Positions 2,651-7,140 of a stretch of 53,907 nucleotides of DNA are shown in pieces (within the stretch, counting starts at the first letter, position 1; the number at the start of each line of letters is the position of its first letter). This stretch comes from Natrialba chahannaoensis JCM 10990 (GTDB lineage Archaea; Halobacteriota; Halobacteria; Halobacteriales; Natrialbaceae): NCBI RefSeq assembly GCF_000337135.1, contig NZ_AOIN01000038.1, positions 1-53,907 on the forward strand, read 5' to 3'. The position numbers and the translations under genes were made by a program. Under the pieces are notes generated by a model. The model did not search any database and was not told the DNA's origin. It saw nothing but the letters and a program-made list of their open reading frames with translations.

Positions 2651-3073
2651 TCACTCGATATCGATCTGCTTCGACCCCTCGTCAGTCGACTCTTTCGGAA
2701 GCCGAACGGTCAACACGCCGTTCTCGTAGCCGGCGTCGATCGCGTCCTCGTCGACCGGATCCGGTAGTCTGATCTGGCGGTTCGCCGACTTTCGCGTCCG
2801 CTCACGTCGGAGATACCGCCCCTCGACATGTTCTTCTTGTTCGTCCGCGCGGGTCGCATCGAGACGGAGCGTCCCGTCCGAGAGCGTGAGATCGATATCC
2901 TCGACGTCGTAGCCTGGGAGATCGGCCGTCACCACGTACTCGTCGTCGCGATCGGCGACGTCCACAGGGACGGAGCCGGGTACCTGCAGGCCACCGCCGG
3001 CCATCCCCTCCTCAACCTGCTTGCTGACGCGGTCGAGCATCTCCTCGAGTTCGTCGAACGGGTTTCGGCGCAT
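2651..3073 (-). CDS. hsp20: Small heat-shock protein, Hsp20/alpha-crystallin family
   Basis: ATP-independent holdase chaperone of 140 residues, the usual length for archaeal sHSPs. An amphipathic N-terminal arm (residues 1-40, MRRNPFDELEEMLDRV) precedes an alpha-crystallin beta-sandwich (about 40-130), with the typical 'VTADLPGYDVEDIDL' strand and a 'ENGVLTVRLPK' strand near the end. The C-terminus has an IDIE tail equivalent to the IxI oligomerisation motif. A TATA-like box 24-33 nt upstream suggests a leaderless monocistronic transcript. Heat or stress induction is known for the family but is not shown by the sequence. Confidence 0.93.
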   Translation of the reverse strand: MRRNPFDELEEMLDRVSKQVEEGMAGGGLQVPGSVPVDVADRDDEYVVTADLPGYDVEDIDLTLSDGTLRLDATRADEQEEHVEGRYLRRERTRKSANRQIRLPDPVDEDAIDAGYENGVLTVRLPKESTDEGSKQIDIE

Positions 3074-3165: not shown

Positions 3166-3621
3166 TCACTCGGGCAGCGTCACCAGCCCCTCGTCCATCG
3201 CCTCAAGCAACACATCGCGCGCGTGACCGTCTGGATCGACGTTCTCGTAGACCGCCTGCACCTCGCCCTCGGCGAGCAGAAACGTCGTTCGCGCGGCCGC
3301 GCCGCTCTCGACCTCGACGCCAAAGGCGTCGGCAACCTCGCCATCCGGATCCGCGAGCAGGTCGAACTCGAGTCCCTCCGCCACGGCGAACGACTGGTGA
3401 GACTCGACATCGTCGGTCGAGACACCGTAGACGTCAACGCCGGCCTCTTGATAGGTCTCCCGTTCGCGCTGGAACTGGGTGGCCTCAGTCGTACAACCGG
3501 GGGTGTCGTCGCGCGGGTAGAAGTAGAGGACCGTTGGGTCGTCGAACGCAGGCGCGACTGCCTCGCCGTCCTGATTCGGTGCGGTCACGTCGGGTGCGTC
3601 GTCGCCTGTCTCGAGTGGCAT
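3166..3621 (-). CDS. bcp: Peroxiredoxin, Bcp/PrxQ type (1-Cys)
   Basis: Thioredoxin-fold peroxidase that reduces hydrogen peroxide and alkyl hydroperoxides in the cytoplasm. The 151-residue protein carries the active-site segment FYPRDDTPGCTTEA with the peroxidatic Cys at residue 43. It has no other cysteine, so it must be a 1-Cys enzyme that relies on an external thiol; many Bcp/PrxQ members have a resolving Cys five residues later. The strand/helix order (DDAPDVTAPNQDG, then VYGVSTDD, then TTFLLAEG) matches the AhpC/TSA fold. It follows hsp20 in the same direction but is separated by about 90 bases, so co-transcription is unclear. Confidence 0.93.
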   Translation of the reverse strand: MPLETGDDAPDVTAPNQDGEAVAPAFDDPTVLYFYPRDDTPGCTTEATQFQRERETYQEAGVDVYGVSTDDVESHQSFAVAEGLEFDLLADPDGEVADAFGVEVESGAAARTTFLLAEGEVQAVYENVDPDGHARDVLLEAMDEGLVTLPE

Positions 3622-3794: not shown

Positions 3795-4613
3795 TTACTC
3801 GACGACGTGCTCGAGATCGTACGACCCCAGTCGGCGAACCCATCCCTTCTCGGCGAGGTCCTCCAACTCGGCAATCGCCTCGTTTGTCCGCGCCTCGTAG
3901 AGCCCTGCCTCAATATCGACGTGGAAGACGTAGTCTCCCAGACGCTGGCCGCTCGGTCGGGATTCGACGCGAGTCAGGTTGATATCCCGGTCGGCAAACG
4001 GCTGGAGCAACTCGAGTAGCAGGCCGGGATAGTTCGCGTTCGGGTAGACGACCAGCGTCGTCTTGCCGCCGCCTTTCGAGCGGTCCTCGGCGGGCGCGAC
4101 GGCGAAGAATCGCGTCGCGTTGGAGTCCTGATCCTGGATGTCTTCGGCGAGGACCTCGAGTTCGGTGCCGTTGTCTGCGTTGGCGGGATGGCCGATGCCG
4201 GCGATAGTGGGATCTTCGCGGGCGAACTCGACGCCCTGTGCCGTGCTTGCGACGGCTTCGAGCGTGGCGTCGGGGTACTCGCGCTCGAGATAGGACCGAC
4301 ATTGGGCGAGCGCCTGGGAGTGGCTGGCGATCGTCTCGAACTTCGGCCCCTGTGCGAGCAGGGCGTGTTTGATCGGGGTGACGATTTCGCGGACGACGGC
4401 GACGTCGTATTCGGCGAGCGCGTCGAGACTCTCCGTAACGCTGCCCTCGATACTGTTCTCGATGGGGATCACGCCACGGTCGTGCTCGCCGGTCGCGACG
4501 GCGTCGACGATCGAGGTGACGGACTGGCGAAAGTCGATAGCGTCCGCGTTGGCGATCGCCTGAGCCGCCCGGTGAGAGTAGGTGCCTTCTGGGCCGAGAG
4601 TCACTGCAGTCAT
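3795..4613 (-). CDS. pheA: Prephenate dehydratase with ACT regulatory domain
   Basis: Converts prephenate to phenylpyruvate in phenylalanine biosynthesis. The 272-residue protein is a monofunctional archaeal PheA without a chorismate mutase domain. The catalytic PDT domain covers about 1-180 and has GPEGTYSH at the start, IPIENSIEGSV, and the catalytic TRF triplet at 167-169. The ACT domain (about 183-268) carries the phenylalanine-binding ESRP motif at 217-220 and a PGLL turn at 196-199, so feedback inhibition by phenylalanine is likely. A GGTATTTTCAC TATA-like word lies about 36 nt upstream. The relic at 4678-5242 begins only about 60 nt upstream of the start codon, near this promoter. Confidence 0.95.
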   Translation of the reverse strand: MTAVTLGPEGTYSHRAAQAIANADAIDFRQSVTSIVDAVATGEHDRGVIPIENSIEGSVTESLDALAEYDVAVVREIVTPIKHALLAQGPKFETIASHSQALAQCRSYLEREYPDATLEAVASTAQGVEFAREDPTIAGIGHPANADNGTELEVLAEDIQDQDSNATRFFAVAPAEDRSKGGGKTTLVVYPNANYPGLLLELLQPFADRDINLTRVESRPSGQRLGDYVFHVDIEAGLYEARTNEAIAELEDLAEKGWVRRLGSYDLEHVVE

Positions 4614-4697
4614 CGCCTGCTGATTGCCGAGAGAACGTGAAAATACCCGGGGTTCGAACGGACGATTGCCGGTGTTATACGTGGAGCAGGCGCAATA

Positions 4698-4717
4698 CCA
4701 CGGCCTTCAGGCCGTGG
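4698..4717. repeat. Left-end palindrome of the relic
   Basis: Perfect 8-bp stem CCACGGCC / GGCCGTGG with a TTCA loop. It has the position and form expected of an IS200/IS605 left-end hairpin recognised by a TnpA transposase. Confidence 0.7.
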
Positions 4718-4726
4718 ATACGCGCC

Positions 4727-4983
4727 GTCACTCAGTGACACGTTCTACCGATAATCCCATATCTGAGTTTCCAATCCTAATGCTCAAGTCACAGGAATCA
4801 CTATACGAGAGCAAGGTCAGGTCGGAACGGAGCGGATTCCGAACGACCGTCGGAGACGGCCTGTCCGCCCACGTAACAAGGTCGTTTGAAAATCGAAGAT
4901 TTTCGCGATCACGAGAGACGGAGTCTCTCGGACGACAGTATCCGAAACGCCGACGCGGTGAACGTGAATCCTCGAAGGGTTCG
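4727..4983 (+). repeat. Cluster of short perfect hairpins with 3-nt loops
   Basis: Within about 260 bases there are five stem-loops with three-base loops: GTCAC-tca-GTGAC (4727-4739), CCGTC-gga-GACGG (4847-4859), GAAAATC-gaa-GATTTTC (4888-4904), CGAGAGAC-gga-GTCTCTCG (4912-4930) and CGAA-ggg-TTCG (4973-4983). A looser GGAA/TTCC pairing lies near 4824-4840. Such a density of exact palindromes is not seen in the flanking DNA and suggests a structured RNA or protein-binding DNA. No protein-coding explanation was found. Confidence 0.6.
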
Positions 4984-5038
4984 CCTTGTGCCCGTCGGTC
5001 GAGCAAGCCCAAGATAACTCCGAGTCCGTCGAAGTCTG

Positions 5039-5076
5039 CCGGACTCACCGTGGTAAAAACAACACGGTGAGTCCGG
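5039..5076. repeat. 14-bp perfect inverted repeat with 10-nt loop
   Basis: CCGGACTCACCGTG at 5039-5052 pairs exactly with CACGGTGAGTCCGG at 5063-5076 across an A-rich loop, GTAAAAACAA. It is the strongest stem-loop in the window and lies inside the relic. It could be a terminator, an RNA scaffold element or an internal transposon end. Confidence 0.75.
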
Positions 5077-5210
5077 GCACGACAGAGGATAGGAGTAACG
5101 GCTACTTGGCATGGCCAGACAGCCACCGACCACGATGTCTGGGTTAGACGCGAACTCCCGTTAAGTGGCGGAGTCATGGTTGCAAACCTGAAACTCCCAC
5201 CGCTCGGGAT

Positions 5211-5233
5211 TCCTCCGCGTTCACGCGGAGGAG
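5211..5233. repeat. Right-end palindrome of the relic
   Basis: Stem TCCTCCGCGT / ACGCGGAGGA (10 bp) with a TTC loop, followed immediately by GGATGTCAA. The arrangement resembles the 3' end of haloarchaeal IS1341-type elements, where the tnpB-associated guide RNA normally terminates. Confidence 0.7.
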
Positions 5234-5568
5234 GATGTCAAGGCAGTGGATTCTCACGTCGGAACAGCCACCTGTGAGGTGATACGACCCTCGATCGGTG
5301 TGAGTTACCGCCGCTATCTGTGCCGGCAGCCTCCCAAATCGGCGATAACAGTTATCCGGTATCGAGACAGTCGTCTGTACATCCCGCTTCCACACTCCCT
5401 CTGGAAACGATCACAGATGAGACGACTGCAGTTCACACCGAGACGCCAACCGCTGAATCGTACTCGCCTCTCGAACACACGTGATGCTTTCTGGTGTCGT
5501 TCCAGTGCTAGTCCCAGCTCACGGTCTCGATCCCGATCCCGATCCCATCCGATCGAAGGTGGATCACC

Positions 5569-6339
5569 GTGATCGATTCGATACTGATGCTCGCCGTTTC
5601 GAGTGCCGTGTTGCTCGCAGCCGCTGCAGCGTTCGGCGGCTACGCACGATCGCTCCCGTCCGGCCCCCATCGCTACGGCTACGCTGCAGCCGTCGCCGCC
5701 AGCGCGATGGGGCTCGCGTACCTGCTGATGGCGATCGTGAGCGGTCTCTTTGGTGCCGAAACCGATGTACTTCGCTTCGTCGGCTACACGGCCATGTGGA
5801 CCGCGATCATCCTCGTTGTCTGTGCAATTGCTGGCGTCGGCCGACGGCTGACGCTGCTCCTGTTCGCCGCGGTTCTTGGCCGCGTCTGGATCACCCTTGG
5901 AAGCTGGTTCGTCGACGGCGCTCTCGCGCTCCTCGCAACCCTCGGGACGTTTGCAGCGCTCGGGCTCGGCCTGTACCTCTTGTTCGGGCCCTTCAGCCGC
6001 GCCGCCGAGGCACTCGAGTCAGAGCGACGATTGCTGTTTACCAAGCTCAAGTATCTCATCGTCCTCAGTTGGGTTGGACTGGTTGCAACTGGACTCCTGT
6101 CCGAAGGAGTCGGCCTCGTGGACGGCTTTGTCAGCCAGCTCGTCGTTATCTACGTGGAGATCGTCCTCCTTCTCGGATTCGGCGGAATCGTCGTCCGGAG
6201 TCAGCGAGCGCTCGCACAGACTGCCGAGGCGACCAGACTCCTCTCGCTTGGAACTGACCGTGGACCGGACCACGGTGGGGGACAGGGCGGATCGGATGGC
6301 CTGAACAGTCCACCGGACCCAGCGGAACACGCAGACTAG
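5569..6339 (+). CDS. Microbial (type 1) rhodopsin homologue lacking the retinal lysine
   Basis: A 256-residue protein with seven predicted membrane helices in the length and spacing of bacteriorhodopsin. Helices E-G align without gaps by eye: LYLLFGPFSRAAEALE resembles the E-F loop region, the conserved helix-F tryptophan is W168, SEG is at 178-180, and GFG is at 203-205 with exactly 22 residues between SEG and GFG, as in bacteriorhodopsin. In that register Asp212 is Glu197 and the Schiff-base Lys216 is Leu201. In helix C, Arg82 is kept (R69), but Asp85 is Gly72, Trp86 is Tyr73 and Asp96 is Val. Tyr185, Pro186 and Trp189 are also lost. Covalent retinal binding and proton pumping are therefore not expected. 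The start is GTG, preceded by a possible SD (AAGGTGG). The hydrophilic tail from about 227 is Gly/Asp-rich. It could be a sensor, a chaperone-like subunit or a non-covalent binder; no function is assigned. Confidence 0.82.
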   Translation: MIDSILMLAVSSAVLLAAAAAFGGYARSLPSGPHRYGYAAAVAASAMGLAYLLMAIVSGLFGAETDVLRFVGYTAMWTAIILVVCAIAGVGRRLTLLLFAAVLGRVWITLGSWFVDGALALLATLGTFAALGLGLYLLFGPFSRAAEALESERRLLFTKLKYLIVLSWVGLVATGLLSEGVGLVDGFVSQLVVIYVEIVLLLGFGGIVVRSQRALAQTAEATRLLSLGTDRGPDHGGGQGGSDGLNSPPDPAEHAD

Positions 6340-6397: not shown

Positions 6398-6706
6398 TTA
6401 CTCGTCTAAGTGATCGATTCCTTTCTTGGAGACGTTGGCCTCCGTGATTTCGTTGGGCATCCAGTCTGGTTTGTCGTCGGGTGCCGTCTCTTCCCAGGCC
6501 CAGCCGTCGTAAATGTGGACCTTGTCCGTTCCTTTCTCGCGCAGTCGAAGCTCGGTTCGGTCAGCCTCGTCCCCACTCGAGCCCGGCTCAAGTCGCCGGG
6601 CTGCCTTGAGGGCTGCCTGACGTGGTGTGTTCCCGGAGAACACACTTTCTTCCTCGCCGTTCGATGACCGCAGTGCGAAGTTTCGCTTACCGTCTTCTCG
6701 TACCAT
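6398..6706 (-). CDS. Non-histone chromosomal protein MC1
   Basis: Small basic/acidic DNA-binding protein of 102 residues, family MC1, which bends and compacts DNA in methanogens and halophiles. The family pattern is clear: RNFALRSSNGEEESVFSG, then TPRQAALKAARRL, LRLREKGTDKVHIYDGW and DWMPNEITEANVSKKG. Compared with methanogen MC1 (about 93 residues) the basic character is diluted by Asp/Glu, as usual in haloarchaea. It is transcribed towards the rhodopsin-like gene (convergent, about 58 bases between the stops). A strong TATA box lies upstream. Confidence 0.93.
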   Translation of the reverse strand: MVREDGKRNFALRSSNGEEESVFSGNTPRQAALKAARRLEPGSSGDEADRTELRLREKGTDKVHIYDGWAWEETAPDDKPDWMPNEITEANVSKKGIDHLDE

Positions 6707-6942: not shown

Positions 6943-7140
6943 ATGGTACGGAAAAAGAAGCTGAGTCCAAGCGGTGCGAAAGACGAAGATGGCAACTATC
7001 ACAACGTCCACCTCAATCTCCACGAGGACGAACTCGCAGTCGCGGGGATGGATATCGGTGACGAAGTATTTGTCCGAGTCCGGGACGGTAAAATCATCAT
7101 CCAGAAGGCCGACGAGGACGATGTCGAACACGAATTCTAG
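6943..7140 (+). CDS. AbrB/SpoVT-like small DNA-binding protein
   Basis: A 65-residue acidic protein. The segment VHLNLHEDELAVAGMDIGDEVFVRVRDGKIIIQKAD has the strand-turn-strand layout of the swapped-hairpin AbrB fold, with the typical 'GDEVFVRVRDGKIII' second half. Such proteins act as transcription factors or antitoxins; no toxin gene lies next to it. The upstream ACGAAGTTCGT palindrome overlaps the promoter region and could reflect autoregulation, which is inference. It is divergent from the MC1 gene. Confidence 0.75.
   Translation: MVRKKKLSPSGAKDEDGNYHNVHLNLHEDELAVAGMDIGDEVFVRVRDGKIIIQKADEDDVEHEF

Follow-up and report, generated by a model that had tools for sequence, protein, structure and literature searches.

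A rhodopsin homologue without the retinal lysine in Natrialba, and evidence for the loss of its adjoining chemotaxis-type transducer gene

The opsin-related gene and its locus

The stretch of DNA analysed here (the window) comprises 53,907 nucleotides of Natrialba chahannaoensis JCM 10990 (contig NZ_AOIN01000038.1); the contigs closest to it, with 86% identity, come from N. hulunbeirensis and Natrialba sp. SSL1. It carries, in this order, genes for Hsp20, a peroxiredoxin, PheA, an opsin-related protein (ORP), the chromosomal protein MC1, an AbrB-like protein, an M14 peptidase, PheT and PheS. The features referred to below are:

2651-3073, minus strand: Hsp20 small heat-shock protein, syntenic neighbour
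3166-3621, minus strand: peroxiredoxin (AhpC/TSA), syntenic neighbour
3795-4613, minus strand: prephenate dehydratase (PheA), upstream syntenic anchor
5334-5376, plus strand: longer stretch homologous to the promoters of transducer-ORP operons from other genera (nhmmer, E 3e-8)
5341-5356, plus strand: 16-bp palindromic element GGCGATAACAGTTATC, promoter element kept from the ancestral transducer-ORP operon
5417-5461, plus strand: possible, weak remnant of the first codons of the lost transducer (MRRLQFTPRRQPLNR), 76 bp after the palindromic element
5569-6339, plus strand: lysine-less microbial-rhodopsin homologue (group B ORP, pheA-locus/E212 clade), 256 aa, assigned by Pfam and alignment register
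6398-6706, minus strand: chromosomal protein MC1, downstream syntenic anchor
6943-7140, plus strand: AbrB/MazE-like small protein, syntenic neighbour, with weak Pfam matches below the cut-offs

The ORP gene starts with GTG and its product belongs to the type 1 microbial rhodopsin fold family. The Pfam profile Bac_rhodopsin (PF01036, cut-off 24.6 bits) matches residues 6-211 with 32.9 bits (E 5.9e-8), which answers the family search proposed in the initial annotation, and bacteriorhodopsin (bR) and sensory rhodopsin II (SRII) are the top sequence matches in the PDB (E ~1e-5), while NCBIfam has no model matching the protein. When a profile of 71 lysine-less relatives was compared by hhalign with one of 50 canonical proteins, each set having been aligned independently, the two were found to be homologous (E 1.2e-16, probability 98.8). 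In this register R69, G72, Y73, V83 and W168 of the window protein correspond to R82, D85, W86, D96 and W182 of bR, and L171, V172, G175, E197 and L201 to Y185, P186, W189, D212 and K216. The profile-profile alignment thus bears out the register first read from the sequence by eye, in which Leu201 takes the place of the Schiff-base lysine required for a photoactive rhodopsin. The list of replaced residues given there (Asp85, Trp86, Asp96, Tyr185, Pro186, Trp189) is correct, Arg82, Trp182 and an acidic residue at 212 are indeed kept, and the distance between the landmarks SEG (178-180) and GFG (203-205) is 22 residues without a gap, just like in bR. Position 118, which lines the retinal ring pocket, is occupied by Arg105, a polar replacement which gives further cause to doubt that retinal is bound.

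The window ORP is a protein of the bacteriorhodopsin family which has lost the retinal lysine. That its fold is kept and covalent retinal chemistry is gone, as initially annotated, is supported by Pfam, hhalign and Leu201. The structure prediction adds little to this and does not contradict it: the AlphaFold2 model, made from three input sequences, is poor (pLDDT 47), has seven helices, and gives SRII and bR as weak top matches in Foldseek (E 0.013).

Lysine-less relatives and the supply of retinal

Matches to the window protein are present in 55 of 125 Natrialbaceae genomes, and lysine-less genes in 51 of these, as the sole match in the other four is canonical. In the tree the 75 homologues without the lysine group together, separate from the canonical rhodopsins (support 1.0), in a single clade which comprises a subclade with Arg at 216, several subclades with a hydrophobic residue there and one member with His. 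All 21 sampled members of the clade of the window gene have Glu at 212 and Arg at 118, so that a homologue survey, as suggested at the outset, confirms the acidic residue in every case. Position 216 is hydrophobic in the orthologs but is L, I or V and not Leu throughout. The protein with His at the position of the retinal lysine (L061:6034-6753) adjoins a transducer and branches basal to the hydrophobic-216 group.

Rhodopsin homologues without lysine are indeed known in general, as initially stated, and this clade itself was already described in 2012 (PMC3403918) and 2016 (PMC4915679). Becker et al. surveyed 80 haloarchaeal genomes in 2016 and found 48 ORPs lacking K216 (PMC4915679). The window gene is one of their group B ORPs, which come from Natrialba and other Clade 1 haloarchaea and have a hydrophobic residue at 216. 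Like these it has lost the retinal pocket, falls into the monophyletic clade without lysine and keeps the equivalents of Y51, R72, Y199 and D189 of Natronomonas pharaonis SRII (NpSRII), namely Y51, R69, Y195 and D185. Compared to group B overall, the clade of the window gene has Glu instead of Asp at 212 and Arg at 118, neither of which is a categorical difference. Transcripts were shown for eight of the nine ORPs examined, which came from four species, N. magadii among them, but mass spectrometry did not detect the protein in the native hosts; two expressed ORPs, among them a different ORP of N. magadii expressed with retinal, showed no retinal absorption, and non-light sensing was proposed for the group (PMC4915679).

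In N. magadii three rhodopsin homologues without lysine have been reported, Nmag_1701, Nmag_2879 and Nmag_2881 (BMC Genomics 2012, PMC3403918). Judged by its position and by the lack of an adjoining transducer, in contrast to the other two genes, which adjoin MCP genes, Nmag_1701 should be the ortholog of the window gene in this other species: it is a distant rhodopsin homologue without lysine at the same locus, and the window protein is 72% identical to the N. magadii ortholog. The bacterial Rh-noK and FArhodopsin proteins are lysine-less as well, but they are separate lineages found together with proteorhodopsin and not with MCPs (PMC10308929).

The distribution of retinal synthesis genes was compared with both types of rhodopsin genes, which repeats the smaller comparison by Becker et al. 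with more genomes. Of the 72 genomes that encode a canonical rhodopsin, 63 also encode a protein of the Brp/Blh family, as compared with none of the 53 others. Brp/Blh proteins do not track the lysine-less genes (23 of 51 genomes with and 40 of 74 without such a gene, p 0.37). In total 26 of the 51 ORP genomes lack both a retinal synthase of the Brp/Blh type and a canonical rhodopsin, which speaks against the roles of retinal carrier and rhodopsin modifier. The window genome is among these: a search for BCD and RPE65 retinal synthases and for canonical rhodopsins found none, both of its two Bac_rhodopsin matches are lysine-less, and the retinal that a photoactive rhodopsin needs is thus not accounted for in this organism. 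BCD (PF15461, Brp/Blh) is absent from all seven Natrialba genomes, six of which encode no known retinal-forming enzyme at all. An RPE65-type dioxygenase together with a canonical rhodopsin occurs among the seven only in genome G045, which is taken to be N. magadii; in this N. magadii-like genome the dioxygenase gene (G045:C3:125544-126917) lies on a separate contig. Matches to the lycopene-cyclase profile PF18916 scored near the cut-off, in short frames, and were left out of the evidence.

Loss of the transducer and retention of the promoter element

In six genomes of other genera (L118, L119, L121, L122, L123, L126) the PheA-ORP-MC1-PheT locus contains an MCP transducer gene directly upstream of the ORP gene and on the same strand. 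This transducer is absent from the locus in all seven Natrialba genomes and in L036, a genome of a different genus. Neither the window nor any Natrialba genome has the adjacent co-transcribed HAMP/MCP transducer of an SRII/HtrII-type system at this ORP, and no transducer gene was found anywhere on the window contig. The gap between PheA and ORP is continuous in all seven Natrialba assemblies.

Upstream of the missing gene the promoter has been kept. A palindromic element, GGCGATAACARTTATC, is common to the six transducer-ORP operons and L036, with small variants in L119 and L121 and, in L123, a homologous stretch recognised by profile only. In these relatives about 86-91 bp separate it from the start of the transducer gene. 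The palindrome of Natrialba precedes the start of the ORP by 146-228 bp (228 bp before the GTG in the window), and the spacer between promoter and ORP varies between the species. An nhmmer promoter profile built from the other genera, L036 included, hits a single place per Natrialba locus. The exact palindrome occurs once in the 4.3-Mb window genome; a search of the 4.3 Mb for a regulon found this site and three further sites with two mismatches, and no regulon.

L036 still contains a transducer stub, consisting of the first 27 codons (70% identity, E 2.3e-9) and a short fragment after these. In Natrialba a tblastn search for transducer remnants before the ORP gave nothing significant. The ATG at 5417 was scored against transducer N-termini, and the fractions of shuffled sequences, 0.04-0.94 overall and 0.25 for the window, prove no coding remnant. 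The simplest history is two or more separate deletions that removed the transducer gene from its place between promoter and ORP, since the loss in L036 is independent of that in Natrialba. The Natrialba members of the clade of the window gene are unlinked through transducer loss. Evidence that the window ORP once adjoined a chemotaxis-type transducer, which was lost from the genus, is new here: PMC3403918 states no locus history for Nmag_1701, and the available text of PMC4915679 does not describe this loss.

The orphan ORP is intact in the seven Natrialba genomes and dN/dS is about 0.16-0.32 for well-separated pairs (pairwise Nei-Gojobori estimates, which are less reliable for the closest pairs). 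Purifying selection on it is as strong as on the transducer-linked paralogue. The orphan is a gene under purifying selection and no decaying pseudogene, although this alone does not make its current role a sensory one.

An insertion of about 500 bp (window about 4680-5245) lies between PheA and the ORP promoter and is absent in the other species of the genus. Hairpins are located near either end (4689-4726 and 5211-5232), there is a perfect inverted repeat of 14 bp (5039-5076), and short segments match other sites in the genome. The insertion looks like the remnant of an IS200/IS605-type element or a MITE.

Possible functions of the orphan protein

HAMP/MCP transducers adjoin 17 of 32 group B genes (PMC4915679), the others being unlinked. 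As far as they could be read at full length, the partner transducers of group B have two transmembrane helices about 7-8 residues apart, followed by HAMP and MCPsignal, and no extracellular domain. Lacking a sensor domain of their own, such transducers must depend on the ORP for their input. The exceptions are the transducers of L038/L039 and of the Arg216 group, with about 220 residues between the helices and a single weak dCache match below the cut-off. The known counterpart is SRII/HtrII of Natronomonas pharaonis, a seven-helix receptor with a two-helix HAMP/MCP transducer that also lacks a sensor domain. SRII has the lysine, binds retinal and senses light, whereas the window ORP has no adjacent transducer, but the receptor contact residues of SRII are kept in it. 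The equivalents of the transducer contacts Y199 and D189 of NpSRII, as given in PMC4915679, are Y195 and D185, and both are conserved in all Natrialba orthologs.

We therefore think that the window ORP is probably a retinal-free, light-independent sensory subunit of an SRII/HtrII-like receptor, which was orphaned in Natrialba and may use another transducer. Of the roles considered at first the light-independent sensor is favoured, because relatives adjoin HAMP/MCP transducers and such a gene was part of the ancestral locus. The ancestral ORP would have been the input subunit of a two-helix, sensor-less HAMP/MCP transducer, both being transcribed from one promoter with the palindrome. In the Natrialba ancestor the deletion would have left the ORP alone under the old promoter. 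As selection on it persists, it has probably remained a membrane sensor independent of light, and it would probably signal through a transducer whose gene lies at another place in the genome. The strongest candidate is the nearest surviving transducer, which is 60% identical to a homologue of the lost partner (57.5% over TM-HAMP) and is located beside the second ORP of the genome on contig C100, where chemotaxis genes and archaellins are also encoded. From sequence similarity coupling in trans to this protein may be proposed, although it already has a cognate ORP. That the orphan plugs into the transducer of its paralogue, giving two non-light opsin inputs to one sensor-less transducer in the way GPCRs share effectors, is a tentative idea which we rate as rather unlikely.

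The ORP could also have been recruited to a role outside taxis after the loss, e.g. as a stand-alone stress sensor or stabiliser independent of MCPs. No same-strand transducer lies alongside 24 of the 74 lysine-less genes with readable neighbourhoods, a count that carries the error of the simple codon-bias caller used for neighbouring genes (some N-termini are truncated and small genes are missed, such as MC1 in the window). Hsp20 and peroxiredoxin are conserved neighbours, and among the unlinked ORPs of Becker et al. three of ten carrier species are described as non-motile and some of the genes lie near stress genes (PMC4915679). However, the stress genes here lie on the strand opposite to the ORP and occur in genomes with a retained transducer too, the tyrosine of the transducer contact has not changed, and every one of the seven Natrialba genomes encodes archaellins; we regard such a recruitment as possible but not likely. 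A functionless relic in decay would agree with the missing transducer and the differing spacers between promoter and ORP, but it is hardly compatible with seven intact genes, their dN/dS values and an exactly retained promoter element, and we consider it improbable.

The two remaining alternatives depend on a chromophore. Non-covalent binding of retinal or a carotenoid, with light sensitivity preserved, could be suspected because Arg82, Tyr57, an aromatic residue at 86 and an acidic one at 212 (bR positions) persist in the window ORP and N. magadii is described as carotenoid-coloured (PMC3403918). It would have to work in a ring pocket in which W189 is replaced by G and M118 by R, mostly in genomes without known retinal-forming enzymes and in a family whose presence, unlike that of canonical rhodopsins, is unrelated to Brp/Blh; together with the missing absorption of two related ORPs this makes it quite implausible. 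A retinal carrier or a modifier of canonical rhodopsins, both among the roles initially listed, has a precedent in what is proposed for bacterial Rh-noK, which in betaproteobacteria is found in tandem with a pump (PMC10308929). As the window genome has neither a canonical rhodopsin nor a known retinal-forming enzyme, this is the least credible role here.

Since the group B transducers are sensor-less, ORPs are candidates for non-light sensing by the rhodopsin fold, and the pheA-locus clade offers a natural comparison, as the same ORP is accompanied by its transducer in some genera but stands alone in Natrialba. Where the genomes lack canonical rhodopsins and known retinal synthases, light-driven rhodopsins cannot explain any phenotype. 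The 16-bp palindrome is a concrete handle on the regulator and thereby on the stimulus.

Two other arrangements were seen among the lysine-less genes. The opsins with Arg216 (L058-L060, L063-L072, L079-L081, L135-L137) adjoin longer transducers of about 700-760 amino acids, and these receptors may have two inputs. In L046, L047, L049 and L035 two different lysine-less opsins flank one transducer in tandem within a chemotaxis cluster, where two ORPs may share one transducer.
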